From the NCBI GenBank assembly GCA_001603425.1, contig LUYZ01000002.1, positions 1-64,000 on the forward strand: 64,000 bases of DNA, read 5' to 3'. This DNA is from Bacteroidales bacterium Bact_08. Lineage in GTDB: Bacteria; Bacteroidota; Bacteroidia; Bacteroidales; UBA932. The position numbers and the translations under genes were made by a program. Shown here piece by piece: positions 8,474 to 34,052 of this stretch. Position 1 is the stretch's first letter. The number at the start of each line of letters is the position of its first letter. Below the pieces are notes generated by a model. That model made no database searches and was not told where the DNA came from. It saw only the letters and a program-made list of their open reading frames with translations.

Positions 8474-11400
8474 ATGATAGAGAAAATAGTAGAAAAAAGA
8501 GCATTGATTATTTCTGCTCTTATAATAACATTTTTGGGAGGAATTGTCTCTTTTGGATCATTAAGTAAATTAGAAGATCCAGAGATTCCAGTTAAGGCTG
8601 CAGTTGTAATGACTTCTTATCCAGGAGCTACAGCAGAGGAGGTGGATCTAGAAGTAACACAAGTTATAGAAAAGGCTCTTCAAAAGCTACAGCATATAGA
8701 TTATATTGAATCTAGATCAATTCCTGGAATGTCCATTGTAAACCTCCATCTAGAGGGGTATATGACTGTAGATCAGCTACCTCAAAAATGGGATCATCTT
8801 AGAAAAAAAATTGCAGATGCATCGTCATCTTTACCCAAGGGAGCTGCATATCCAATTATTAATGATGACTTTGGTGATGTATATGGTATTTTCATGGCAG
8901 TTAGTAGCGATGGTTACTCATATGATGAGCTAGAGCACTATACCGACTATATAAAAACCAGAATTCAGATGGTTGAGGGTGTAAAGAGGGTGGAGTTGGT
9001 TGGAAGAAAAACGGAGAGTGTTGAGATAATATTCTCTCCAGAGAAATTTGCATCATTAGGTATTAATCCTATGGCTATAGTTCAGTTAATAGGAGATCAA
9101 TCCTCAGTAGTTGATGCAGGCACTTCTGTTTATGGAACAGAGAGAGTTAGAGTAAATGTTGGAAATAAATTTCAGTCTTTAGATGAGATTGCCAATCTTA
9201 GCATTCCTGCTGGGAATGGTAAAAGTTTTAGATTGGCCGATATTGCAACTATAGAGAGAAGTTACCTCTCTCCTTCAAGGTCTGGTCTAAAATATAATGG
9301 AGCAGAGAGTATTGGACTGGCAGTCTCTATGGCTAAAGGAGATAACATAATTAAGTTAGGACAAAGAATAGAACAGGCTCTGGAAGAGATATATAAAGAA
9401 CTTCCAATTGGCATAGAGGTTAACACAATATATGATCAACCAAACTCAGTAAAGGATGCAATTACAGATTTTACCTGGAACTTGATAATGTCTGTAGGAA
9501 TAGTAATTTTAGTTGTCTTTATTGCTATTGGCTTAAAAGCTGGATTGTTGATATCTAGTAGCCTAGTATTTACTATTCTAGGTACATTTATCGTTATGAG
9601 TATGACCAATATGACATTAGATAAGGTGTCATTGGCTGCAATTGTGATTGCAATGGGTATGCTAGTAGATAACGCGATTGTAATAGCAGATGGTATTTTA
9701 TTTGATATTAAGAGAGGGGTTCAAAAGGACAAGGCTCTATTTGGAGCTGTCAAACAAAATTCATTACCTCTGATTGGTGCTACTCTAGTTGCAATATTAG
9801 CCTTTATGCCATTGGCATATAATACAACTGCTGCAGGAGAGTTCATGAAGCCACTATTTTTTGTACTATTTGTATCTCTTACCTTAAGTTGGTTCTATGC
9901 AGTTGTTCAGGTTCCATTTATGGCTAAATATATTTATAAGAGTAGCTTGAAGGAGGGTGATGAAGTTAAAGGAAGTAAGGCTATGTACAATAGCCCATTT
10001 TATAGATTCTACAGAGGCTTTATTAGTTATGCCCTGTTGCATAAGAAAATATTTACTATCTCTTCTGTATTAATATTGATTCTATCCTTCTTTGCATTCC
10101 CGTTAATTAATAAAGATTTTTTCCCTACTCAACAGTATGATCAATTTATGGTTGAGTATAAATTACCAGAGGGGAGTGATATAGATGCCGTATCAAGAGA
10201 TTTAGACTCATTAACAACCGAGTTACTCTCCTGGGGTGAGATTAAATCGATAACATCCTCTATTGCCGCATCTCCTGTAAGATATACTCTTTCTAGACCA
10301 ATGAATACTTATAATCCTTCATATGGTGAGTTAATTGTAGATCTACATAGTGCAGAGGATATGACAGATATTATGAATCGTATCTCTACAGAGATGACTC
10401 TTAAGTATCCAAATGCACAAATTAGATGTAGAGAGTACTCAGCTATTGGGGGTGATTATAAGGTTCAGGCGCTATTTAGTGGCCCAAATACAGATACTTT
10501 GGAGTCTTTGGCAAATAGAGCCTTGGATATATTAAAACAAGAGAGTGAGGCTCAGTTTGCAAATGTAGATTGGGGAAATCAGACAAAGGCATTAATTCCA
10601 GTCTACTCTCCATATAAAGCTCAAAGATTTAACTTATCACGAGCCTCAATGGCGCAAGCTGTAGCAATTTCTACTGACGGAATGATTGTTGGAGTTTATA
10701 ATCAAGAAGATAGAAAATTGCCGATTGTTCTCAAAACAGATGATGCCTCTTTCAAAGATTCAAAACAACTACTAATGATTCCTGTTTGGGGGCCTCAGTC
10801 ACAAAATTCCGTACCAATGGAGCAGATTGTGGATTCATTGAGAATAGATGGTGAGTATTATATAATTAAAAGATATAATGGACAGAGAGCAATAAAAGTT
10901 CAAGCTCAACCTATCCCTGGTGTTACTGCAGAGAAACTATTTTTGAAAGTAAGACCTCAAATAGAGTCAATCCCACTACCATTGGGTTACGCTTTGGAGT
11001 GGCATGGAGAGTATAAAGATAGCAATACTGCAAATAGCGCTCTTTTTGAAAATCTGCCATTGGCAATACTTCTTATGGTGCTAATTTTAGTTGGGCTGTT
11101 TAACAACTTTAGAATACCTATTATTATATTTTTAATTGTGCCGATGGCGTTTATAGGAATAATATTTGGCTTTTTGGTTACCAGAATGAATTTTGGATTT
11201 ATTGCAATTGTTGGAGGTTTGGGATTAATCGGTATGATGATTAAAAATGCAGTGGTACTGATTGAACAAATTAATATAGATATAAGAAGTGGTAAATTAC
11301 CTGTAATTGCAATAATACAAGCATCGGTTTCCAGAGTAAGACCAGTTGTTGTGGCATCTTTAACAACAATACTTGGGATGTTTCCATTAATAACAGATGA

Positions 11401-22483: not shown

Positions 22484-23611
22484 ATGAAGTTCTCAATAAA
22501 GGAGATCAATTCTCCTTACGATATAAAAAAGTTTATTAAGTTTCCACACAAGCTTTATAAAAAGTGTGATCAATATGTTCCTGTATTAGATTCAGATGAG
22601 TACAAAATATTAACTCAAAGCCCATCTTTGGAGTATTGTGAAATTAAGATGTGGTTGGCCATATCAGAAACCAATGATGTTGTGGGTAGGGTGGCAGCAA
22701 TCTATAATCCTAGGTCTAATGAGTATCATAATCAAAAGAGAGTAAGGTTTGGTTGGTTAGATTTCATAGATGATTATGATGTTCTTAAATCTTTGATAGA
22801 TAAGGTAGTGGATTGGACTAAAGAGCTGGGAATGAGTGAAATTCATGGGCCTCTTGGCTACAATACATGGAATAGACAGGGGATGTTGATAGAGGGTTTT
22901 GAAAATACACCTCCAATTAATTGTCTTTATAACTACTCATATTATCCTCAATTAATGGATAGAGTTGGTTTTGAGAAACAGGTAGACTGGGTGCAAGTTA
23001 AGATAAAGGCAAATGTTGGAGTTCCAGATAAAATTAAAAGAATAAATCAACTTCTTTTAGAAAAATATAAATTGAGAATTTTAGATTTAAAAGAGTTTAA
23101 AGATCCAAAAAAGAGAGAGGTTTTTATAGATAATTTTTTTAAAAATTACAATTTTGCATTTAAAGAGATAGATAATTTTGTGCCTCTAACCAAAAAGGAG
23201 ATAGATGCTATAGCTAATGAGTATTTCCCCAAATTAAAGGAGGAGCTAACTTGCATTATTGCAGATGAAAATGATAATATAGCTGCATTTGGTATATGCT
23301 TTCCAAATCTCTCGTCCTCATTTAAAAAGGCTAAAGGAAAGCTCTTCCCTTTTGGGTTATTTCATATTCTTAGAGAATACAAAAGGTATGATACAATAGA
23401 TTTGATGATTTTAGGCTCTTCTGAGGAGTGGCAAAACAAAGGAATATCCTCTATTTATCATACTCATTTGGCAACAAATCTTTCAAAATCTAATATTCAG
23501 TATGCAATTTCAAATCCTCAGGCCGAAAATAATTCTGCATATAAGGTTTGGAGTAGATATGGTTTTGAGCCATATATGAGACGTAGGTGCTATATTAAGT
23601 CAATTATCTAA
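22484..23611 (+). CDS. GNAT-like acyltransferase family protein, function unknown
   Basis: 375 residues with a divided GNAT fold. There is an N-terminal part (YVPVLDSDEYKIL, VVGRVAAIYN) and a C-terminal acetyl-CoA-type half (DLMILGSSEEWQNKGISSIYHTHLATN, then AISNPQAENNSAYKVWSRYGF). The pattern HGPLGYNTWNRQGMLIEGFE is characteristic of a conserved Bacteroidota protein set annotated as GNAT N-acetyltransferase. The substrate is unknown. It has its own promoter and seems to be a single gene, 34 bases before the DRTGG gene. Confidence 0.75.
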   Translation: MKFSIKEINSPYDIKKFIKFPHKLYKKCDQYVPVLDSDEYKILTQSPSLEYCEIKMWLAISETNDVVGRVAAIYNPRSNEYHNQKRVRFGWLDFIDDYDVLKSLIDKVVDWTKELGMSEIHGPLGYNTWNRQGMLIEGFENTPPINCLYNYSYYPQLMDRVGFEKQVDWVQVKIKANVGVPDKIKRINQLLLEKYKLRILDLKEFKDPKKREVFIDNFFKNYNFAFKEIDNFVPLTKKEIDAIANEYFPKLKEELTCIIADENDNIAAFGICFPNLSSSFKKAKGKLFPFGLFHILREYKRYDTIDLMILGSSEEWQNKGISSIYHTHLATNLSKSNIQYAISNPQAENNSAYKVWSRYGFEPYMRRRCYIKSII

Positions 23612-23645: not shown

Positions 23646-23990
23646 ATGGTATTACAGGAGGTTTGTAATCTGGTTAATGGAGAGGTGCTATGTGGCCACT
23701 CTCGTCTGAAAGAGAGTGTAGAGTTTGCTTTCTCTTCTGATCTGATGAGTGATGTTCTTACTGTAAAAAAAGAGCATTTTTTGCTTATTACAGGTCTTGC
23801 AAATAGTCAATCTATCAGAACAGCTGAAATGTCTGATGCTCCGTATATATTAATCTGTAGAGGTAAAACAGTTACTCCAGATATGGTTGAATTGGCTAGT
23901 GAGAATGGAATATTAATAATTGTTTCTAAGTTCTCTATGTTCAAGTGTTCTGGAATATTATATAGTGCAGGACTAAAAGCAGTTTACTAA
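23646..23990 (+). CDS. DRTGG domain protein (first copy)
   Basis: 114 residues built almost entirely of one DRTGG-type domain: ESVEFAFSSDLMSDVLT in place of the usual VTGG..SDLLSDVM, followed by a flavodoxin-like alternation of strands and helices. The domain is also found between the P-loop and phosphotransacetylase parts of Pta and near CBS proteins, where it is thought to bind ligand. Beside hydrogenase genes, stand-alone versions accompany RsbW-like kinases and PHP proteins. The ligand is unknown. It is the first gene of the hydrogenase-linked regulatory cluster, one base before the next ORF. Confidence 0.75.
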   Translation: MVLQEVCNLVNGEVLCGHSRLKESVEFAFSSDLMSDVLTVKKEHFLLITGLANSQSIRTAEMSDAPYILICRGKTVTPDMVELASENGILIIVSKFSMFKCSGILYSAGLKAVY

Positions 23991-23991
23991 T

Positions 23992-24405
23992 ATGAAGTTT
24001 CAATACTCTGTTGAGGGAGGAGACTTTACAATGGCAGGGCACGCCTCCTCTCAAGTTAAAAAGAGCCTAAAACAACTTGGAATAGATAGCTCTATTATTA
24101 AGAGAGTTGTGGTGGCGCTTTATGAGGCAGAGGTTAATATTGTAGCTCATGCATATAGAGGAGTTATTGATGTAGATATTGAGAGTGCTGGTATAAAGTT
24201 AAAGTTAACAGATGAGGGCCCTGGTATTCCAGATATCGAGAAGGCTATGACAAAAGGTTTTTCTACAGCCTCTGCAGCCGTAAGAGAGATGGGTTTTGGA
24301 GCAGGAATGGGGCTTCCTAACATTAGAGATAATTCAGACAGGTTTACAATAGATACTGTTGTAAATAAAGGGACAGTTTTAAGTATTGAGATAGATTTCA
24401 AATAA
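23992..24405 (+). CDS. RsbW-like GHKL ATPase (anti-sigma/serine kinase fold)
   Basis: 137 residues, a single HATPase domain. The N box is ALYEAEVNIVAHAY (about 43-56), G1 is DEGPGIPD (about 76-83), and G2 is GFGAGMGLPNI. There is no dimerisation/phospho-acceptor domain, so it is like the anti-sigma kinases RsbW and SpoIIAB rather than a sensor kinase. In hydrogenase clusters of Clostridia such genes sit between DRTGG and HsfB-like genes, as here. The partner protein is unknown. It could phosphorylate a target or bind ATP as a switch. Confidence 0.8.
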   Translation: MKFQYSVEGGDFTMAGHASSQVKKSLKQLGIDSSIIKRVVVALYEAEVNIVAHAYRGVIDVDIESAGIKLKLTDEGPGIPDIEKAMTKGFSTASAAVREMGFGAGMGLPNIRDNSDRFTIDTVVNKGTVLSIEIDFK

Positions 24406-24419
24406 CATATGTTTTCCTT

Positions 24420-25763
24420 ATGGGTGGATATCGTCATACAACGTATAATCGTGCTCTTGAGATTTCAACCGATATTTGTATTGGATGTTCTCATTGTATG
24501 AAGGTGTGTCCTACCGAGGCATTGCGCGTTTTTGGTGGTAAGGCTGGTATTCATGCCGATTGGTGTATAGATTGTGGAGAGTGTTATAGGGTGTGTCCAA
24601 CTCGCGCTATTGGGGTTATGGATGACGATTTTAAGGAGATATTTAATTATCGGCATAGAGTCCTTTTGGTTCCTTCTGTGTTTTTTGCTCAATTTGATCG
24701 GACTGTACCTAGGCAGAAGATTTTTGATATAATTGGAGAGCTTGGTTTTACAGAGGTTTGTACTGTAGAGCAGAGTGTAGATACGTTGGTGGATGAGATC
24801 AATTCCTATATTGAGGATGCAGATAAGCCTGTGATATCTTCGTTTTGCCCTGCTATCGTTAGGTTGATTCAGGTCAGATTTCCATCATTAGTGGATAACA
24901 TAATGAAGCTACTGCCTCCAATCGAAATTACTGCTCAATTCTATAAAAAGAGATACGAAAGGGAAGGCATGGACTGTTCTGAATTCGGAATTTTCTACCT
25001 AACTCCATGTATTGGTAAAATTGCGGCTGTAAAATCTCCGGTTGGTGGATATAAATCTCCCATAACTGGTGTGATTAATATGGATTTCTTCTTCAATAAA
25101 GTATATTTGGCATATCGTCAAAAAATAGAGATAACAAAATCTATTATTGTTAATGATCAACTCTCATCAAAAGGGGTTTTGTATCCAACTACAGGGGGAG
25201 AATCAATAAATATTAGCGGAAGATCTTTAGCTGTAGATGGGATGAAAAATTCTATTGATTTTTTAGAAGCATTAGAGAATGAGGAGATTAAAAATCTAGA
25301 TTTTTTAGAGATAAGAGCCTGTGATGAGTCTTGTGCTGGAGGTATTTTATCTCATAGAAACCGCTTCTTAACGGCAGAGAGTCTGAGAGAATTTGCATCT
25401 AAAGTTCCAAAAGAGCATAATTTAATCTTAGATTATAAAAAATATTGTTCAGCTGTAGTTCATATGGATAGGATAGAGCCAAGATCTATGGTTAAATATG
25501 ATAGAGATATTGAAGTGGCTTTAAAGAAGATGGAGAGTGCAAGAAGGTTAAGAGAGCTTTTTCCTGGGATAGATTGTGGAGCTTGTGGGGCACCTAGTTG
25601 TGAGGCGTTGGCCGAAGATGTAGTTAAAGGTCAGGCAGATATAAATTCATGTATATTTTTAAGAACAGTTTATGAAAAGAGAGGTGAAATCTCGTTGGAT
25701 GAGGCTGTAAAGATAATGGAGAGTATTTGGGGTAAAGATAGGTTCAGTAAAAATAGTGATTAA
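24420..25763 (+). CDS. HsfB-like degenerate [FeFe]-hydrogenase sensor protein
   Basis: 447 residues. An N-terminal 2x[4Fe-4S] ferredoxin (CIGCSHCMKVCP about 21-32; CIDCGECYRVCP about 49-60) is followed by a large hydrogenase-type domain and a C-terminal Fe-S domain with CGACGAPSCEALAEDVV. The three H-cluster motifs are present but altered. SSFCPAIV replaces TSCCPxW, TPCIGKIAAV replaces MPCxxKxxE, and ACDESCAGGIL replaces the third motif. The four cubane-binding cysteines remain, while the Cys and Glu of the proton path are lost. It is therefore more likely a redox or H2 sensor than an efficient enzyme. It lies in the regulatory half of the cluster, away from HndD. Confidence 0.82.
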   Translation: MGGYRHTTYNRALEISTDICIGCSHCMKVCPTEALRVFGGKAGIHADWCIDCGECYRVCPTRAIGVMDDDFKEIFNYRHRVLLVPSVFFAQFDRTVPRQKIFDIIGELGFTEVCTVEQSVDTLVDEINSYIEDADKPVISSFCPAIVRLIQVRFPSLVDNIMKLLPPIEITAQFYKKRYEREGMDCSEFGIFYLTPCIGKIAAVKSPVGGYKSPITGVINMDFFFNKVYLAYRQKIEITKSIIVNDQLSSKGVLYPTTGGESINISGRSLAVDGMKNSIDFLEALENEEIKNLDFLEIRACDESCAGGILSHRNRFLTAESLREFASKVPKEHNLILDYKKYCSAVVHMDRIEPRSMVKYDRDIEVALKKMESARRLRELFPGIDCGACGAPSCEALAEDVVKGQADINSCIFLRTVYEKRGEISLDEAVKIMESIWGKDRFSKNSD

Positions 25764-25790
25764 TTATAGTCGATTTTAATACTTAATATT

Positions 25791-26126
25791 ATGAAAATTC
25801 AAGATTTGGTAGACTCTCTTGGCCTTGTTGTGTTTACTGGCCAAACTCTCTTAGATAATGAGGTAACTGGTGGTTATACTAGCGATTTACTATCAGATGT
25901 TATGGGTTTTGCAAAAGAGGGGAATATTTGGATAACTCTTCAGACTCATAAAAACGTAATTGGAGTTGCCTCTTTAAAGGATCTCTCTGCAATATTGTTA
26001 ATAAAGGGGTTTGAGCCAGACCAAGATGCTCTTGCTTTAGCAGAAAAAGAGGATATTCCCATATTAGGTACCAAGATGGGTGCTTTTGAAATTTCTGCAA
26101 AAATTTATAATTTGATTAATAGTTAG
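25791..26126 (+). CDS. DRTGG domain protein (second copy)
   Basis: 111 residues with the classic motif VTGGYTSDLLSDVMGFAKEG (about 25-44) and a following ligand-fold pattern (NVIGVASLKDLSAILLIKGF, then IPILGTKMGAFEISAKIY). It is clearly related to the first DRTGG protein of the cluster but better conserved at the motif, so the pair may have different ligands or form a heterodimer. It is followed after 5 bases by the PHP gene. Confidence 0.8.
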   Translation: MKIQDLVDSLGLVVFTGQTLLDNEVTGGYTSDLLSDVMGFAKEGNIWITLQTHKNVIGVASLKDLSAILLIKGFEPDQDALALAEKEDIPILGTKMGAFEISAKIYNLINS

Positions 26127-26131
26127 TTTTA

Positions 26132-26845
26132 GTGAAGGCCGATCTTCATATTCATACGGTTTTATCACCTTGTGGGAGTCTGGATATGGCGCCATGTAAT
26201 ATAGTTAAACGTGCAAAGGAGGAGAATTTGTCTATTATCGGCATAACAGATCATAATAGCACAAAAAACGCTTTAGTTATTAAAGAGATTGCACAAAGAG
26301 AGGGTATTTATGTTTTAACTGGAGCGGAGATTACAACCAAAGAGGAGATTCATCTTTTGGCTTTTGTAGATGGTGATAAAAATCTTCAATTATTACAAGA
26401 TTTTTTAGATAGTAATATTGTTAAAATAGATAATAATGTAGATATCTTTGGATATCAGCTTGTTGTTGATGAGTTTGAGTCTATTGTGGAGCAGATAGAT
26501 CATCTGCTAATTAACTCTCTGAATTGTGATATTTATGAAATAGAGTCTTTTGTGAGATCTATTGGGGGCTTTGTTATACCAGCTCATATTGATAAAAAAC
26601 AAAACTCAATTTTAAGTCAATTAGGTTATTTGCCGTTAGATTTAAATTGTAATGTTTTAGAGGTATCGGCAAAATGTAATATTCATAAATTTATTGAGGA
26701 TAACTCTTATTTAAAAAAATACAATTTTATTAGGAGTTCAGATGCTCACTATCTAGAAGATATTGGATGTGGATATACTCAGATAGAGATTGAAGATAGC
26801 AATCTTAATTTTGAGGTGATAAAAAATAGTATAAACAGTTATTAA
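26132..26845 (+). CDS. PHP domain metal-dependent phosphoesterase
   Basis: 237 residues. The metal-binding motifs of PHP phosphatases are present: DLHIHTVLSPCG (HxH, residues 4-8), ITDHNS, GAEITTKEEIH, PAHIDK and RSSDAH near the end. Family members cleave phosphoester substrates including nucleotide derivatives; the substrate here is unknown. The start is GTG at 26132, directly before the first motif. The gene is typical of the DRTGG/RsbW/HsfB hydrogenase neighbourhood and might make or degrade a small signal. Confidence 0.82.
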   Translation: MKADLHIHTVLSPCGSLDMAPCNIVKRAKEENLSIIGITDHNSTKNALVIKEIAQREGIYVLTGAEITTKEEIHLLAFVDGDKNLQLLQDFLDSNIVKIDNNVDIFGYQLVVDEFESIVEQIDHLLINSLNCDIYEIESFVRSIGGFVIPAHIDKKQNSILSQLGYLPLDLNCNVLEVSAKCNIHKFIEDNSYLKKYNFIRSSDAHYLEDIGCGYTQIEIEDSNLNFEVIKNSINSY

Positions 26846-26851
26846 AAATAT

Positions 26852-27388
26852 ATGAACGATCTCTCTCTTCACATAATTGATATTATTCAAAACTCGGTTT
26901 CTGCTGGAGCAACTCATATAAGTTTGTCTATAGAGGATAGTTTGAAAAATGATTATCTTAAAATTAGCATAAAAGATAATGGAAAGGGGATGGATCAGGA
27001 GCAGGTTAAGAGTTTGTCTGACCCTTTTTTTACATCTAGAACTACACGGAGAGTTGGGATGGGTATTCCTCTTTTTAAGCAGGCGGCTGAGCAAACAGGC
27101 GGAAGTTTAGAGGTTAATTCAGTGATTGGTATCGGCACTGAGGTGGTTGCTAGTTTTGTCAATAGTCATATAGATAGAGCGCCTTTAGGAGATGTAGCTA
27201 ACTCCTTTATCTTAATGGTTTCTGCTAATCCTAATATAGATTTTGAATTAAAGTATGATAAGGATGGGAATGTATATGAGTTTAATACTGTTGAGGTTAG
27301 GGGTGTTTTAGAAGATCTTCCATTAAATGATCCTTCAGTTATAAGAATGTTAACATCTATGATTGATGAAAATATAAAAGATTTATGA
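26852..27388 (+). CDS. GHKL ATPase without kinase acceptor domain (second ATPase)
   Basis: 178 residues. The N box is HIIDIIQNSVSAGATHI, G1 is DNGKGMDQE, and the G2 region is RVGMGIPLFKQAAEQTGGSL, as in histidine-kinase ATPase domains. No His acceptor helix precedes it. About 70 C-terminal residues (from about 105) carry an extra domain of unknown type. Similar stand-alone ATPases occur beside NADH-dependent hydrogenase genes. It may regulate hydrogenase gene expression together with the RsbW-like protein. It overlaps the sirtuin gene by 4 bases (ATGA). Confidence 0.78.
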   Translation: MNDLSLHIIDIIQNSVSAGATHISLSIEDSLKNDYLKISIKDNGKGMDQEQVKSLSDPFFTSRTTRRVGMGIPLFKQAAEQTGGSLEVNSVIGIGTEVVASFVNSHIDRAPLGDVANSFILMVSANPNIDFELKYDKDGNVYEFNTVEVRGVLEDLPLNDPSVIRMLTSMIDENIKDL

Positions 27389-28074
27389 AAAAGAAACTGG
27401 TATTTTTAACGGGTGCTGGGGTTAGTGCTGAGAGTGGTTTAGAGACTTTTAGAGCCTCAGATGGATTGTGGTCAAAACATAGAATAGAGGATGTATGCAC
27501 TCCTGAGGCTTTGCAGAGAAATCCCAAATTGGTATTGGATTTTTATAATGCAAGGAGAGCTCAATTAAAAAGTGTAGAGCCAAATAGTGGTCATTATAGA
27601 GTTGCACAGTTAGAGAAGTTTTTTGATGTTAATGTGGTAACTCAAAATGTTGATGATCTTCATGAGCGTGCTGGTTCTTCTAAGGTCCTCCATTTGCATG
27701 GTGAGTTGCTAAAATGTACTAGTACTCTAGATTCTAGCTATGTTGAGGAGATAAAAGATGATTTAACTGTTGGAGATAAATGTCCTAAGGGAGGGCAATT
27801 AAGGCCTTATATCGTCTTTTTTGGAGAGGCTGTTCCTATGATGGATTTAGCTGTAGATATCGTTTCACTAGCCGATATTGTGGTTGTTGCAGGAACTTCT
27901 TTAAATGTCTATCCTGCTGCAGGACTTATTAACTGTTCAAAAACAGACTCATATAAGTTTTTAATAGATCCTGCAGACTTTAATATTAGATTGAAAAATC
28001 TTAAGCATATTAAGGATAAGTTTTCTAGCGGAATGGATTTACTGTATAATGAGTTAACTACTTATTATTTGTAA
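27385..28074 (+). CDS. cobB: Sirtuin (SIR2) NAD-dependent protein deacylase
   Basis: 229 residues. Motifs are GAGVSAESGLETFR (about 10-23), TQNVDDLHERAG, the catalytic His in LHLHGELL, and GTSLNVYPAAG. FYNARR contains the Tyr and Arg that in class III sirtuins favour succinyl/malonyl-lysine. Only two of the four usual zinc cysteines are seen, so it may lack zinc. It is translationally coupled (ATGA) to the GHKL ATPase of the hydrogenase cluster. This suggests NAD+-dependent deacylation tied to hydrogen/NADH balance, which is an inference from position. Confidence 0.9.
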   Translation: MKKKLVFLTGAGVSAESGLETFRASDGLWSKHRIEDVCTPEALQRNPKLVLDFYNARRAQLKSVEPNSGHYRVAQLEKFFDVNVVTQNVDDLHERAGSSKVLHLHGELLKCTSTLDSSYVEEIKDDLTVGDKCPKGGQLRPYIVFFGEAVPMMDLAVDIVSLADIVVVAGTSLNVYPAAGLINCSKTDSYKFLIDPADFNIRLKNLKHIKDKFSSGMDLLYNELTTYYL

Positions 28075-28150
28075 TGCTAGTTTTGAATTTTAATTTTTTT
28101 TTAGCTATTTTTAACGATAATTTGTAATTAAACTTAACCAAATATAAACT

Positions 28151-28552
28151 ATGAAAAAGATCAAATCATTAGATGATTTGCGCCAAATGAAAAAGAATTT
28201 AGAGCAGGGTATGAATATTCGTGAAAAGAGCGATACTCCTGAATCTCTTATTCAAATTAGAGTGGCTATGGCCACGTGCGGAATAGCCGCAGGCGCAAGG
28301 GGAGTAATGAATACTCTTATAGAAAGAATAGAAAAAGATAAAATCCCGGCAATTGTAACTCAAGGAGGATGTATGGGATATTGTTATGCAGAGCCTACAA
28401 TTGAGGTTAAGATTCCTGGTAAAGATCCTGTTGTTTTTGGTAATGTTGATACTGCTGTTGCTAATCAAATTGTGGATAAATATATTCTCAATGGAGAGCT
28501 TATAGATGGTGTTATACCAACTAACTATCAAACTATTAATGAGAAAAAATAA
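28151..28552 (+). CDS. hndB: Hydrogenase subunit HndB-like, [2Fe-2S] thioredoxin fold
   Basis: 133 residues with an N-terminal basic/charged helix and then a thioredoxin-like [2Fe-2S] ferredoxin domain with Cys in ATCGIAAGA and QGGCMGYC. This matches HndB of NAD(P)-linked [FeFe] hydrogenases and would pass electrons between the flavin and hydrogenase subunits. It is the first gene of the structural set. A 76-base gap after the sirtuin gene leaves room for a separate promoter. Confidence 0.82.
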   Translation: MKKIKSLDDLRQMKKNLEQGMNIREKSDTPESLIQIRVAMATCGIAAGARGVMNTLIERIEKDKIPAIVTQGGCMGYCYAEPTIEVKIPGKDPVVFGNVDTAVANQIVDKYILNGELIDGVIPTNYQTINEKK

Positions 28553-28557
28553 TTTTT

Positions 28558-30351
28558 ATGGCACAATATAAAATGCATTTATTAGTTTGTGGTGGTACAG
28601 GATGTCGTGCTTCACAAAGTGATGTTATTGTCAAAAATTTAGAGAGTTCAATTAAAGAGCTTGGTCTTTCAGAAGAGGCTCAAGTGGTGACAACTGGTTG
28701 TTTTGGCTTTTGTGAAAAAGGTCCAATTGTTAAGGTCATTCCTGATAATACTTTTTACACTCAAGTTAAGCCAGAGGATTGCGAAGAGATTGTGAGAGAG
28801 CATGTTCTAAAGGGCAGAAGAGTTTATAGATTATTATATGAAGATCCTGAAACTCAAAAGCATATCGAGGACTCAAAGCACATGGGTTTTTATCAAAAAC
28901 AGCTTAGAATTGCTTTGAGAAATTGTGGATTTATTGATCCTGAAAATATTGATGAGTATATTGCTAGAGATGGATATGCTGCAATAGGTAATATTCTAGC
29001 TGAGATGTCTCCAGAGCAGGCGATAGATATAATGAAAAAATCTGGACTTAGAGGTAGAGGTGGTGGAGGATTCCCTACTGGTATCAAATGGGAGATTGCA
29101 AGTAAGAATAAAGCTGATCAAAAATATGTTGTTTGTAATGCCGATGAGGGTGACCCTGGTGCATTTATGGATAGGTCTATTTTGGAGGGAGATCCTCACT
29201 CTGTTTTAGAGGCTATGGCAATATGTGGCTATTGTATTGGAGCTAGTAAAGGTCTGATTTATATTAGAGCTGAATATCCATTAGCTATTAAAAGATTACA
29301 AGTTGCAATATCTCAAGCTAGAGAGTATGGTCTATTAGGTGATAATATTCTTGGTACTCCATTTAGTTTTGATGTTGAACTTAAATATGGAGCAGGGGCT
29401 TTTGTTTGTGGAGAGGAGACAGCTTTGATTCATTCAATGGAGGGGCATAGAGGTGAGCCTACTGTTAAACCACCATTCCCAGCCGAGAAGGGTTACTTAG
29501 GTAAACCAACAAATGTGAATAATGTAGAGACTCTTGCTAATATTCCGGTTATATATTTAAAAGGTGCTGAGTGGTTTGCTTCTATCGGCACAGAAAAATC
29601 AAAAGGTACTAAGGTTTTTGCCCTAGCTGGTAAAATTAATAATGTTGGTCTAATTGAGGTTCCAATGGGTATTACTTTAAGAGAGGTAATATATGAAATT
29701 GGTGGTGGTATTAAGGGAGGTAAAAAGTTTAAGGCTGTTCAGACAGGTGGACCTTCTGGAGGATGTCTTACAGAGAAGCACTTAGATACTCCTATTGATT
29801 TTGACAATCTGCTTGCAGCGGGTTCTATGATGGGTTCTGGTGGAATGATTGTTATGGACGAAGATGACTGTATGGTATCTGTTGCTAAATTCTATTTAGA
29901 ATTTACCGTAGAGGAGTCTTGTGGTAAATGTGCACCTTGTAGAGTTGGTAATAAGAGATTACATGAGATATTAGAGAAGATTTGTGCTGGAAAAGGTACA
30001 GAGGATGATCTTGAATATCTTAAAAACTTGAGTTATGTAATTAAAGATACTTCATTATGTGGTTTGGGACAGACCTCTCCAAATCCGGTTTTGAGTACTT
30101 TAGAGCATTTCTATGATGAGTATCTTGCACACGTTAGAGAGCGTATTTGTATTGCTGGTAGGTGTAAAGCTTTAAAATTGTACACCATATTGCCTGATAA
30201 ATGTACTGGATGTACCGCTTGTACAAGAGCTTGTCCAGTTGGTGCTATTACAGGGGAAAAACGTCAGCCACATGTAATTGATGTTGATAAATGTATCAGG
30301 TGTGGCGCTTGCTACGATAAATGTAAATTTACCGCTATTCACGTTCAATAA
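28558..30351 (+). CDS. hndC: NADH-dependent [FeFe]-hydrogenase flavoprotein subunit (HndC/HydB)
   Basis: 597 residues. An N-terminal thioredoxin-like [2Fe-2S] domain (CGGTGCRAS...TGCFGFC) precedes a NuoF-like core with GRGGGGFPTGIKWEIA (FMN/NADH), YGAGAFVCGEETALIHSMEG and ESCGKCAPCRVGNKRL (the NuoF [4Fe-4S]). The C-terminus is a 2x[4Fe-4S] ferredoxin (CTGCTACTRACP, CIRCGACYDKC). This layout is that of the NADH-oxidising subunit of electron-bifurcating hydrogenases, which use NADH plus reduced ferredoxin to make H2. Five bases separate it from hndB. Confidence 0.92.
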   Translation: MAQYKMHLLVCGGTGCRASQSDVIVKNLESSIKELGLSEEAQVVTTGCFGFCEKGPIVKVIPDNTFYTQVKPEDCEEIVREHVLKGRRVYRLLYEDPETQKHIEDSKHMGFYQKQLRIALRNCGFIDPENIDEYIARDGYAAIGNILAEMSPEQAIDIMKKSGLRGRGGGGFPTGIKWEIASKNKADQKYVVCNADEGDPGAFMDRSILEGDPHSVLEAMAICGYCIGASKGLIYIRAEYPLAIKRLQVAISQAREYGLLGDNILGTPFSFDVELKYGAGAFVCGEETALIHSMEGHRGEPTVKPPFPAEKGYLGKPTNVNNVETLANIPVIYLKGAEWFASIGTEKSKGTKVFALAGKINNVGLIEVPMGITLREVIYEIGGGIKGGKKFKAVQTGGPSGGCLTEKHLDTPIDFDNLLAAGSMMGSGGMIVMDEDDCMVSVAKFYLEFTVEESCGKCAPCRVGNKRLHEILEKICAGKGTEDDLEYLKNLSYVIKDTSLCGLGQTSPNPVLSTLEHFYDEYLAHVRERICIAGRCKALKLYTILPDKCTGCTACTRACPVGAITGEKRQPHVIDVDKCIRCGACYDKCKFTAIHVQ

Positions 30352-30359
30352 TCATTTCA

Positions 30360-32123
30360 ATGGAAAAAATAAAATTAACAATAGATAATATAGAGGTTGA
30401 GGTTCAAAATGGGACAACAATCTATCATGCCGCTAAAAAGATCGGGATAGACATCCCTGTTCTTTGTTATATGAATCTGGAACATCTTAATATAGAAAAT
30501 CGTCCAGGTGGTTGTAGAATATGTGTTGTTGAGGTTGAGGGTCGCAGAAATTTAGCACCTTCATGTTCTACAAATTGTACAGAGGGTATGGTTGTTAAAA
30601 CTCATAGTTTAAGAGTTTTAAATGCAAGAAAAACTGTGTTGGAATTGATTTTATCTGATCATCCAACAGAGTGTCTAGTGTGTTCATCTTCTGGGAAGTG
30701 TGATTTACAGTCACTAGCTCAGAAGTTGGGTATAAGAGAGATTCATGCTGTTGAAAATGCCGAAAGGTCTACTTATAGAAAAGATTGCTCTCCTGCTCTT
30801 AATAGAGACATGGATAAGTGTGTAATGTGTCGCAGATGTGAAACTATATGTAATGATGTTCAGACTGTTGGTGCATTAAGTGCTGTTAACAGAGGATTTA
30901 TGTCTGTTGTTGCACCAGCTTTTGAGCAGGATTTAATTGATTCTCCATGTACTTTCTGTGGTCAGTGTGTTGCTGTTTGTCCAACAGGTGCTTTAACTCC
31001 TTTTGACGATACTTCTAAAGTTTTAAAGGCTCTTACAGATCCTTCAAAAACTGTCATTGTTCAGACAGCTCCTGCAGTTAGAGCTGCACTTGGAGAGGAA
31101 TTTGGTCTTACTCCTGGAACACTTGTTACTGGTAAGATGGTTGCTGCATTGAGAACTTTAGGTTTTGATAAGGTATTTGATACTGATTTTGCTGCCGATC
31201 TTACAATTATGGAGGAGGGCACGGAGTTATTAGATAGAATTACTCGTTATCTTGGAGGTGATAAAGAGGTTAAGTTGCCAATTTTAACATCTTGTTGTCC
31301 TGCTTGGGTCAATTTCTTTGAGCATAACTACCCTTGTATGTTGGATGTTCCATCTACAGCAAGATCTCCACAACAGATGTTTGGTGCTATTGCTAAAACA
31401 TATTATGCCGATATGTTGAAGATAAAGAGAGAGGATTTGGTTGTGGTATCTGTAATGCCTTGTTTGGCTAAAAAATATGAGTGCCAAAGAGATGAATTTA
31501 AGGTAGATGGGAATCCAGATGTCGATTTTTCTATCTCTACTAGAGAGCTTGCTTCACTTATTAAAATGGCAAATATTAACTTCAATAACTTACCTGATGA
31601 GGAGTTTGATTCTCCTATGGGTGAGTCTACTGGTGCTGCTGTTATATTTGGAGCTACGGGTGGTGTTATTGAAGCTGCTGTAAGAACGGCATATGAACTT
31701 CAAACAGGTCTAAAATTAAATAAAATTGATTTTGAAGAGTTGCGTGGTTTGGAGGGAATAAGAACTGCAACTATTGACTTTAATGGAACTCCAATACACA
31801 TCGGCATAGCTCACCAATTAGGAAATGCAAGAAAATTACTTGATGGTATTCGTTCTGGATTATATAATTTCCATGCAATTGAGATAATGGCTTGTCCAGG
31901 AGGATGTATAGGTGGAGCTGGTCAACCACTTCATTTTGGTAATTCAGATGTAATTAAGGCCAGATTTGATGCTATATATAGAGAAGATGCTTCTAAAACT
32001 CTTAGAAAATCTCATGAGAATCCTTATATAATTAAATTGTATAAAGAGTTTTTAGGACATCCAATGAGCGAAAAGGCACATCATCTTTTGCATACTCACT
32101 ATTTTGAAAAAAATAAAATATAG
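30360..32123 (+). CDS. hndD: [FeFe] hydrogenase catalytic subunit (HndD/HydA)
   Basis: 587 residues. The order is an N-terminal [2Fe-2S] domain, a His-Cys3 [4Fe-4S] domain (HPTECLVCSSSGKCDLQ), 2x[4Fe-4S] (CVMCRRCETICN, CTFCGQCVAVCP), then the H-cluster domain. All three H-cluster motifs are intact: TSCCPAW (about 310-316), MPCLAKKYECQ (about 366), and EIMACPGGCIGGAGQP (about 507). A short C-terminal small-subunit-like tail (YLHTHYF-type: HHLLHTHYF) ends the protein. It should reduce protons to H2 with electrons from HndC. No maturation genes (hydEFG) are in this window. Confidence 0.95.
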   Translation: MEKIKLTIDNIEVEVQNGTTIYHAAKKIGIDIPVLCYMNLEHLNIENRPGGCRICVVEVEGRRNLAPSCSTNCTEGMVVKTHSLRVLNARKTVLELILSDHPTECLVCSSSGKCDLQSLAQKLGIREIHAVENAERSTYRKDCSPALNRDMDKCVMCRRCETICNDVQTVGALSAVNRGFMSVVAPAFEQDLIDSPCTFCGQCVAVCPTGALTPFDDTSKVLKALTDPSKTVIVQTAPAVRAALGEEFGLTPGTLVTGKMVAALRTLGFDKVFDTDFAADLTIMEEGTELLDRITRYLGGDKEVKLPILTSCCPAWVNFFEHNYPCMLDVPSTARSPQQMFGAIAKTYYADMLKIKREDLVVVSVMPCLAKKYECQRDEFKVDGNPDVDFSISTRELASLIKMANINFNNLPDEEFDSPMGESTGAAVIFGATGGVIEAAVRTAYELQTGLKLNKIDFEELRGLEGIRTATIDFNGTPIHIGIAHQLGNARKLLDGIRSGLYNFHAIEIMACPGGCIGGAGQPLHFGNSDVIKARFDAIYREDASKTLRKSHENPYIIKLYKEFLGHPMSEKAHHLLHTHYFEKNKI

Positions 32124-32129
32124 ATTGTT

Positions 32130-32609
32130 ATGAGTTCATTTAAAATACAAGATTGTCATAAACAAACCATTAAACAGATTTGCGAATCTTTTAATAATAA
32201 TCCAGGAGAGCTAATTAGTATTCTTCATAAGACCCAAGGAGAGTTTGGATATCTTCCAGAGGATATTCAAAGAGAGATTGCTAAGAATCTTAATATATCT
32301 GTAGCTAAGGTATATGGAGTTGTCACTTTTTACTCTTTCTTTACTATGACACCCAAAGGGCGTCATGCTATATCTGTTTGTATGGGTACTGCTTGTTATG
32401 TTAGGGGTGCCGAGAAGATTGTTGATGAGTTAAAGGAGCAGTTAAAGATTAAAGTAGGGGGAGTTACTGATGATGGTAAATTTTCTCTAGATTGTCTTAG
32501 ATGTGTAGGTGCTTGTGGCTTAGCTCCTGTAGTATTAATAGGAGAGAAGGTTTATGGAAGAGTTGAAGCTAATCAAATTAAGGACATTTTAGCTTCTTAT
32601 GAAGATTAG
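32130..32609 (+). CDS. hndA: Hydrogenase NuoE-like subunit (HndA/HydC)
   Basis: 159 residues, a NuoE-type [2Fe-2S] protein. A helical N-terminus with GELISILHKTQGEFGYLPEDI and VYGVVTFYSFF is followed by the four cluster cysteines in CMGTACYVRG and CLRCVGACG. It bridges HndC and HndD. In most hnd operons this subunit comes first; here it is last, directly before a strong terminator. Confidence 0.92.
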   Translation: MSSFKIQDCHKQTIKQICESFNNNPGELISILHKTQGEFGYLPEDIQREIAKNLNISVAKVYGVVTFYSFFTMTPKGRHAISVCMGTACYVRGAEKIVDELKEQLKIKVGGVTDDGKFSLDCLRCVGACGLAPVVLIGEKVYGRVEANQIKDILASYED

Positions 32610-32670: not shown

Positions 32671-33230
32671 CTCTGATGGAGTGTATGCAAAAGCTTGGCC
32701 GAGAGTAGGTTGGGGTGTGGCTCTGACGGAGTGCGTGCAAAGGTGTTGGTTGTAAGAGGTTTGTGAATTTGAAAAGGTTTTTATGGTGAAGCTGAAAGGC
32801 AGCTTTGCTTGCAAAGCTTGCACAATCTACCATATATTGAGTTGCTGGTCAAAGGTTTGGGGTGTGACTCTGACGGAGTGCGTGCAAAGGTGTTGTATAT
32901 GAGATGGTTGTGGATTTGAAATGGTTTGGCCTTGGAGCAGGAGGCTTGCTTACGCCCCCCATCAAAGTTTTCAACTTTAATGGGGTTAGACTAGGGGCGA
33001 CAACGGTACTTTTGGGCAGTTTTGGGTTGATTATTGGTTTTGATGGGTGTTTATTTACAATTTATGTTTGTAAATACAATTGGAGGCTGACTTGTTGGGA
33101 TGTAAGATGTTGTTTATGTGTGAGTTACCTCTTCGTTAGGTTAAGGTGTTGGTTTGGAGGTGGTTAGAGGAGGCTCTGACTGAGTGCGTGCAAAGGTATT
33201 GGCTGTGAAGGTTTTACGAAAACAAAAAGG
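32671..33230 (+). repeat. Dispersed repeat with core CTCTGACGGAGTGCGTGCAA, four copies
   Basis: Copies lie at 32671-32692 (partial, diverged), 32708-32777, 32854-32924 and 33151-33230. Copies 2 and 3 share an upstream GGTTTGGGGTGTG-type stretch, and copies 2-4 share a downstream GTG(A)ATTTGAAAAGG-like stretch, giving a unit of about 70 bp. Spacing is irregular (about 146 and 297 bases), so it is neither a tandem array nor CRISPR. No copy was noticed elsewhere in the window. Confidence 0.75.
32957..32985 (-). repeat. Hairpin within the repeat island
   Basis: CCCCATCAAAGTT (32957-32969) and AACTTTAATGGGG (32973-32985) match at 12 of 13 positions around a 3-base loop. In minus-strand RNA the single mismatch becomes a G-U pair, so the stem is complete on that strand only. 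No T-run follows, so it is not an obvious terminator. Confidence 0.5.
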
Positions 33231-33294
33231 ACGGATAAAAGAGCAAAAGAAGCAAAAAAAGGCAAGAATGAGAGCCGCTGAGACAAAAGGGAAT

Positions 33295-33388
33295 GGCAAG
33301 GAGCTGGAAACCAGCGAAAAGGCACGGGCAGCGGCAGAGTGAGAGGCTATGGAGCAGAGAGACAGAGAGAAGCAACAAGGCAAAAGGA
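33295..33388 (+). repeat. Separate copy of the 113-bp repeat unit
   Basis: From GGCAAGGAGCTGGAAACC to GGCAAAAGG this segment matches the tandem units at 33665-34000 almost base for base (CACGGGCAGCGGCAGAGTGA, GACAGAGAGAAGCA). It is separated from them by about 275 bases that include the folded element at 33424-33512. Confidence 0.75.
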
Positions 33389-33423
33389 ACAGAAAGGGAT
33401 AAAGGATCCTGCTATAACAGACT

Positions 33424-33512
33424 AGGTAAATAACTTTGCGAAAAAACTTCCACTTGCATGTTGCATATTACAGCTTCGGTAGCTCTCTGCACTGCAACAT
33501 AAGTTTTTACCT
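33424..33512. ncRNA. Foldable element, candidate structured RNA or mobile-element end
   Basis: Nested inverted repeats. The outer stem AGGTAAATAACTT (33424-33436) / AAGTTTTTACCT (33501-33512) gives 12 pairs with one bulged T. The middle stem ATGTTGCA (33458-33465) / TGCAACAT (33493-33500) has 8 perfect pairs and abuts the outer 3' arm. The inner hairpin is AGCT-TCGGT-AGCT (33472-33484). A 21-base bulge sits on the 5' side. The strand cannot be decided, and transcription is unproven. It is flanked by copies of the 113-bp repeat. Confidence 0.4.
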
Positions 33513-33664
33513 ATTCTATTGATAGTTTTTGAGGAAAAGGACGAGGACTGTTTGACGAACGACAGTGAGGAGTTCCGCAGGCCCCGAAAAAACAGAAAAG
33601 AAAATAGGTGCCGCTGAAAAAACTTCGTTGCAGCAGGAGAGATTGAAACTGGACAAAAGGGAGC

Positions 33665-34000
33665 GGCAAAGAGCTGAAAACCAAAGAGAAGACACGGGCA
33701 GCGGCAGAGTGAGAGACTAGGGAGCAGATAGACAGAGAGAAGCAGCAAGGCAAAAGGAAACAGAGACAAAAAGAAAAGGCAAAGAGCTGGAAACCAGCGA
33801 GAAGGTACGGACAGCGGCAGAGTGAGAGGCTAGGGAACAGATAGACAGAGAGAAGCAGCAAGGCAAAACGAGACAGAGACAAAAGGAAAAGGCAAAGAGC
33901 TGAAAACCACGGAGAAGACGCGGGCAGCGGCAGAGTGAGGGGCTAAGAGCCAGATAGACAGGGCAAAGCAGTAGGGCAAAAAGCAGATTGAGAGGCTAAG
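33665..34000 (+). repeat. Tandem 113-bp direct repeat, three copies
   Basis: Units start at GGCAAAGAGCTG at 33665, 33778 and 33891, exactly 113 bases apart. The last unit is more diverged. Conserved blocks include CGGGCAGCGGCAGAGTGAG and AGATAGACAGAGAGAAGCAG. The period is not a multiple of three, which argues against a protein repeat. Confidence 0.85.
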
Positions 34001-34052
34001 TAGCCATGTGGGGTGTCTGGTAGGTGTATAGGTCATAAAGGCAGCTGGTCAG

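Follow-up and report, generated by a model that had tools for sequence, protein, structure and literature searches.

The locus described here raises the question of which of seven closely packed genes lying directly ahead of hydrogenase structural genes belong together, and what they may do for the complex encoded behind them. The genes lie in a stretch of 64,000 nucleotides, hereafter called the window, from Bacteroidales bacterium Bact_08 (GTDB family UBA932; assembly GCA_001603425.1, contig LUYZ01000002.1, positions 1 to 64,000, forward strand). Seven ORFs occupy positions 23646-28074 of the plus strand with intervals of 1, 14, 27, 5, 6 and -4 bp, in that order, and both DRTGG matches exceed the Pfam cut-off (Table 1). 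Coordinates and Pfam domains therefore bear out the arrangement given in a preliminary description of this DNA, namely seven head-to-tail ORFs with tiny gaps or overlaps ahead of the hnd genes. The HndD protein of the window passes the cut-off of NCBIfam NF040763 for NADH-dependent group A6 hydrogenases (886.5 versus 765 bits).

Table 1. Features of the hydrogenase-linked locus, in window coordinates.
Feature	Position	Strand	Evidence
drtgg1, DRTGG-domain protein, 114 aa	23646..23990	+	PF07085, 28.8 bits
rsbW-like GHKL Ser/Thr-kinase-type ATPase, 137 aa	23992..24405	+	HATPase_c_2
HydS/HsfB-like group-D-type [FeFe]-hydrogenase homologue, 447 aa, without PAS	24420..25763	+	Fer4 x2, Fe_hyd_lg_C, FeS (PF04060)
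drtgg2, second DRTGG-domain protein, 111 aa	25791..26126	+	PF07085, 29.5 bits
PHP-domain phosphoesterase, 237 aa, GTG start	26132..26845	+	PHP and PHP_C
GHKL ATPase, 178 aa, C-terminal extension of about 65 residues, without HisKA	26852..27388	+	HATPase_c
Sirtuin, 229 aa, neighbour outside the conserved module	27385..28074	+	SIR2
Gap ahead of the structural hydrogenase genes, probably holding their promoter	28075..28150	+	TAnnTTTG enrichment upstream of fdx in relatives
fdx (HndB-like), hndC, hndD and hndA, presumed target, NADH-dependent bifurcating [FeFe] hydrogenase of group A6 type	28151..32609	+	

Comparison across genomes revealed a conserved order of six genes, drtgg1-rsbW-hydS-drtgg2-php-ghkl (hereafter the module), usually followed in Bacteroidales by fdx-hndC-hndD-hndA. 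Dozens of genomes from several phyla share this order, far more than chance would give. The window genome carries a single copy. A clear HsfB/HydS orthologue was found in 15 of the 60 genomes of the window's family and in 47 of 148 Bacteroidales genomes (about 40 families), and a phylum-wide sample of 248 genomes yielded just two further genomes. Named genomes were also scanned, and of at least 584 loci the 80 best were retained; the true range is therefore wider than these 80, which came from Clostridia, Ignavibacteria, Chlorobi-labelled genomes, Aminicenantes, Sumerlaeota, Zixibacteria, Acidobacteria, Calditrichota, Spirochaetes, Desulfuromonas and others, most of them with the same module. 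Similar sets without the sirtuin had been stated to occur in Clostridia; the same six genes are present there, and the module is common in anaerobes, including gut and rumen Clostridia. Among the combined 133 loci, in which those ending at contig edges are counted, all six genes were accompanied by hnd genes in 72 and stood without them in 14, and the bare trio drtgg1-rsbW-hydS occurred without nearby hnd genes in 12; drtgg1 lay beside hydS in 127. Some variants were also seen: a CheW gene replaces drtgg1 directly ahead of rsbW-hydS in one locus (L166:9065-9529), drtgg1 adjoins hydS with neither rsbW nor hydrogenase genes near in Anaerosolibacter (L119, L129), and one HydS orthologue (G007:C168:3302-4636) contains a TAA inside the matched stretch, and is possibly decaying or an assembly error.

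The sirtuin had been counted as part of the cluster, an assignment that must be abandoned because its distribution is independent of the module. It adjoins the module in 4 of the 15 module-bearing genomes of the window's family, following ghkl only in the window and two loci of its genus (L048, L049) and hydS in one other (L053). A sirtuin is found in 56 of the 60 genomes of this family, nearly always in single copy and nearly always away from the module, and that of the window is the sole one in its genome. Glucokinase or SusD-type genes lay alongside at two other sirtuin sites inspected. Membership in the module is ruled out by this distribution and by the unrelated neighbours at other loci, and the window sirtuin is most plausibly a housekeeping gene that has moved. 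At the other end, a 375-aa GNAT-like protein (window 22484-23611) ends 34 bp upstream of drtgg1, and such a gene adjoins drtgg1 upstream in eight loci, all within the window's family; acetyltransferase-like and sirtuin genes thus lie on either side of the module in the window's genus.

The product of the third gene had been labelled a degenerate hydrogenase, but all of its cofactor ligands, both the H-cluster cysteines and the C-terminal Cx2Cx4Cx16C, are kept. The protein combines two N-terminal [4Fe-4S] motifs (Fer4 x2) with an H-domain (Fe_hyd_lg_C), and the eight N-terminal cysteines are retained in 49 of 49 Bacteroidales sequences. With the exception of one truncated row, the H-cluster cysteines C143, C197, C301 and C305 are invariant in Bacteroidales, and C386, C389, C394 and C411 of the C-terminal motif (spacing 2, 4, 16) are invariant there as well. 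Across the 133 HydS sequences, C300, C355, C499 and C503, in CpI numbering carried over by motif and not via a solved structure, are practically invariant together with Cx2Cx4Cx16C; one sequence (L157) has His instead of C499. K358 is also conserved. Only L107 among the 133 sequences retains C299, and nearly all have Thr or Ser in place of M353; the window protein has F142 and T195 at these positions, and Pfam found no PAS domain in it. Group D (M2e) is characterised by no PAS domain, loss of C299 and replacement of M353 by Ser or Thr (PMC8163306), and on the basis of these residues and domains the HydS-like protein fits this group of putative sensory [FeFe]-hydrogenases, such as TamHydS.

TamHydS of Thermoanaerobacter mathranii resembles the window protein in its two N-terminal [4Fe-4S] motifs, H-domain, C-terminal Cx2Cx4Cx16C and absence of PAS, in the replacement of C299 and of M353 by a hydroxyl residue (T), and in gene context, since both genes precede those of a bifurcating group A hydrogenase and lie next to one for a kinase-like ATPase (PMC8163306). 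It takes up an H-cluster and turns over H2 after artificial maturation (PMC8163306). Of its gene neighbourhood that report describes just the ATPase and a regulator of the AraC type, and not the complete DRTGG/PHP/GHKL module. Unlike TamHydS, the Bacteroidales proteins have a specific pocket with F or Y at 299 (49/49) and R at 497 replacing M497 (48/48), whereas Clostridia HydS mostly have A or S at 299 and N or L at 497. The idea that residue 299 tracks maturase loss was rejected, as genomes lacking HydF and HydG variously show F, Y, A, S, C and H there, and F is also found alongside HydF (L120). The window genome itself carries HydF and HydG.

The active-site residues of the partner proteins are also intact. 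In the RsbW-like protein, E45, N49, D74, G76, G78 and the GFGAGMGL lid are kept in 97-100% of 128 sequences; in DRTGG2, D32, S35, T49 and N55 are 100% conserved in 105; the likely metal ligands of the PHP protein (H6, H8, D40, H41, E66, H74, H152, D204 and H206) are conserved at 99-100% in 104; and the catalytic/ATP-binding residues of the GHKL ATPase are conserved. DRTGG1 and RsbW form a single protein in nine loci from several phyla (L113 at 9154-9963, L115, L128, L153, L157, L123, L146, L095 and L096; the L123 and L095 fusions are identical in sequence), and PHP and GHKL form a single protein in two Acidobacteria loci (L111:1593-3125 and L120:11460-12992). These natural fusions point to two working pairs and name the partners to test first. 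The predicted structure of the L113 fusion matched SpoIIAB (TM 0.80) and the DRTGG protein AF1212 (TM 0.79), where a pTM of 0.64 and a disordered linker limit what can be claimed to the two folds and not a domain interface. The GHKL ATPase model (pLDDT 91, pTM 0.86) matched topo VI, MutL and histidine kinases in the PDB, and its C-terminal extension gave no identification in this comparison.

The RsbW-like protein or its fused relative shows the SpoIIAB fold with the catalytic E and the N-box N, and thus resembles SpoIIAB/RsbW anti-sigma kinases in fold and catalytic residues. It differs from them in being tied to, and sometimes fused with, DRTGG, and it was not filed under RsbW/SpoIIAB partner-switching because the locus has neither a STAS protein nor a sigma factor. 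Pfam detected no STAS antagonist, sigma factor or DNA-binding output protein among the module proteins, and both ATPases contain HATPase domains only, with no HisKA/DHp phosphoacceptor domain.

The preliminary description held that a clostridial signalling module, with the sirtuin added, had been transferred whole into this Bacteroidales genome. The HydS tree unites the Bacteroidales in one long-stemmed clade (starred branch, support 100); the other groups are one dominated by Clostridia and one of mixed phyla, and the Bacteroidales clade is not nested within Clostridia in this unrooted tree. The DRTGG1, RsbW, DRTGG2 and PHP trees, built from short alignments by a quick method, each return the same single Bacteroidales clade, so that gene by gene these four and HydS share one history; the GHKL and Hnd subunit trees, obtained with the same limits, require two changes, and no starred branch opposes one origin. 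The trees show that the module has long been inherited jointly in Bacteroidales as one old lineage, and they lend no support to a recent import from Clostridia. The shared gene history therefore stands, and agrees with a whole-module transfer, as does the presence of the same six genes in Clostridia; however, the occurrence in 47 of 148 genomes and the long-stemmed clade outside Clostridia contradict a recent event, and the target gene order (fdx-C-D-A versus A-fdx-C-D) and the sirtuin distribution, unrelated to the module, also argue against it. We consider such a transfer into this genome very improbable. Because the tree has no inferred root, it neither demonstrates nor rules out an older transfer at the base of Bacteroidales. 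Two Bacteroidales genomes (L095, L096) have a divergent copy with fused DRTGG1-RsbW that falls in the mixed-phyla group, adjoins hndA-hndC-hndD-like genes and may represent a separate transfer.

The module is closely tied to NAD-linked complexes. An A6-type HndD is present in 43 of the 47 module-bearing Bacteroidales genomes (Fisher p about 3e-18, uncorrected for kinship), and this co-occurrence, together with the conserved position next to the hnd genes, upholds the earlier view of a hydrogenase-linked gene set. As 18 Bacteroidales genomes with completeness of at least 90% have the HndD hydrogenase without the module, the module is accessory. In the mixed-phyla group, hdrC, hdrB and the N-terminal part of HdrA typically lie upstream, and hndA, fdx, hndC, the C-part of HdrA fused to a HoxU-like domain, mvhD, mvhG and mvhA lie downstream.

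Ten module genomes from other phyla (G376, G450-G457 and G460) gave no HydF over the cut-off, no HydG and no group A [FeFe] hydrogenase, and keep the HydS cysteines. The HdrA N-part adjoins the module in 8 of these 10 loci and mvh genes in 6, and most of the ten have the module embedded in an NAD-linked Hdr-Mvh [NiFe] operon, hdrCB-hdrA(N) ... hndA-fdx-hndC-hdrA(C)-mvhDGA. One of the ten (G376) is 99% complete in about 10 contigs and the other nine, all named genomes, carry no completeness value; moreover, in three genomes (G062, G384 and G463) a group A [FeFe] hydrogenase was detected but neither HydF nor HydG, so that assembly or model gaps can mimic absence and the test is imperfect. The [FeFe] and [NiFe]/Hdr settings share a NuoEF-like NADH unit, not the H-cluster. 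As the module is kept in the ten genomes, it may sense redox state rather than H2, and these genomes permit a direct test of H2 versus general redox sensing. HdrA is split around the module in L097, L098, L100, L101, L103, L106, L109 and L120, with the C-part, bearing a HoxU-like 2Fe-2S domain, behind hndC. A gene for Rex, an NADH/NAD+-sensing repressor, lies directly upstream of the module in L113 and L115.

The six genes may be explained as a cytosolic redox-sensing, ATP-dependent regulatory module for NAD-linked electron-bifurcating complexes, with HndABCD as the target here and H2 sensing by an H-cluster as an option, a reading that we hold with evenly balanced confidence. Electrons would pass between the HydS-like protein and ferredoxin or H2 by way of the clusters at its N-terminus, the H-domain [4Fe-4S] site (joined by the 2Fe subcluster in organisms that have maturases) and the [4Fe-4S] cluster at its C-terminus. 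The redox state of this protein would gate DRTGG1-RsbW, a single unit in which a SpoIIAB-like kinase would work with a DRTGG adaptor instead of a STAS protein, and PHP and the GHKL ATPase, with DRTGG2 as adaptor, would form a second unit reversing or relaying the phosphorylation, the output adjusting hydrogenase activity or expression; the order of signalling, the phosphorylation targets and the output are those that we infer. This explanation is weakened by the lack of a DNA-binding output protein, sigma factor or STAS partner encoded in the module, by the H-cluster uptake and H2 turnover of the group D relative TamHydS (PMC8163306), and by the dependence of the HydF/HydG absence mostly on genomes with no completeness value. 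We advance only tentatively the broader proposal that control by the module extends to NAD-linked electron-bifurcating enzymes in general, whether of [FeFe] or of [NiFe]/Hdr type, with HydS acting as an Fe-S redox sensor free of an H-cluster where none can be made and DRTGG replacing STAS as the partner of a SpoIIAB-like kinase.

The module bears on how the 'sensory' hydrogenases of groups C and D relay a signal in H2 metabolism. The HydS-like protein might instead be a true H2 sensor whose complete H-cluster binds H2 and signals via the kinases, as proposed for TamHydS and TmHydS. The conservation of all four H-cluster cysteines and K358, the presence of HydF and HydG in the window genome, the activity of TamHydS, with the same domain plan, after artificial maturation (PMC8163306), and the altered fermentation of Thermoanaerobacterium on deletion of the PAS-bearing HfsB (PMC11837493) favour this alternative; we nevertheless judge it somewhat unlikely, considering that the same protein with the same cysteines occurs in the ten genomes above and that the Bacteroidales pocket has a bulky F or Y for C299 and Arg for M497, unlike that of Clostridia. 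It is more doubtful still that the module assembles, repairs or activates a multi-subunit NAD-linked complex, with the two ATPases and an Fe-S carrier inserting or re-reducing clusters. An Fe-S-rich protein and two GHKL ATPases do adjoin structural genes in both the [FeFe] and the [NiFe]/Hdr settings, but the 18 Bacteroidales genomes with HndD manage without the module, and hnd genes are missing from the surroundings of many loci that carry the module or just its first three genes. To our knowledge, a dedicated phosphoesterase and DRTGG proteins are also atypical of assembly systems.

An operon of this type has already been described in Halanaerobium and, in part, in T. mathranii (PMC8163306). 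According to PMC4237134, Halsa_1862-1871 of Halanaerobium hydrogeniformans contains much the same set as a putative operon (an unidentified ORF, an anti-sigma factor kinase, Fe-S proteins, PHP, NuoE, a histidine kinase, a ferredoxin-like protein, an NADH dehydrogenase and an Fe hydrogenase), with structural genes ordered unlike those of Bacteroidales. The group C proteins TmHydS, HfsB and R. albus HydS likewise lie beside a metabolic hydrogenase, are proposed regulators and have the C-terminal cluster, but bear a PAS domain, and the hfs operon is composed differently (PMC10055695, PMC11837493). Searches of the open-access literature for DRTGG together with hydrogenase, and for combined module terms, returned no relevant paper. 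Judged against that literature, the H-cluster-free [NiFe]/Hdr setting appears new. The same holds for the range and gene order of the module within Bacteroidales, the fused proteins, the pocket specific to Bacteroidales and the finding that the sirtuin lies outside the conserved set.

The Bacteroidales -7 motif, TAnnTTTG, occurs upstream of drtgg1 in 27 of 48 loci (4.5 expected) and upstream of fdx in 11 of 33 (2.3 expected), the expectations being indicative values from base-content shuffles; it is not enriched inside the module, and the window's own stretch before fdx holds no exact match. The gap between ghkl and fdx has a median of 70 bp, compared with medians of at most 10 bp within the module. 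Together, the motif enrichment and the longer gap suggest two transcription units, one for the module and one for the hydrogenase. Window 33141-34036, downstream of hndA, contains minus-strand ORFs that overlap and encode recurring stretches of peptide (LLLSVYLFPSLSLCRCP and similar); the region looks like a diverged tandem DNA repeat.
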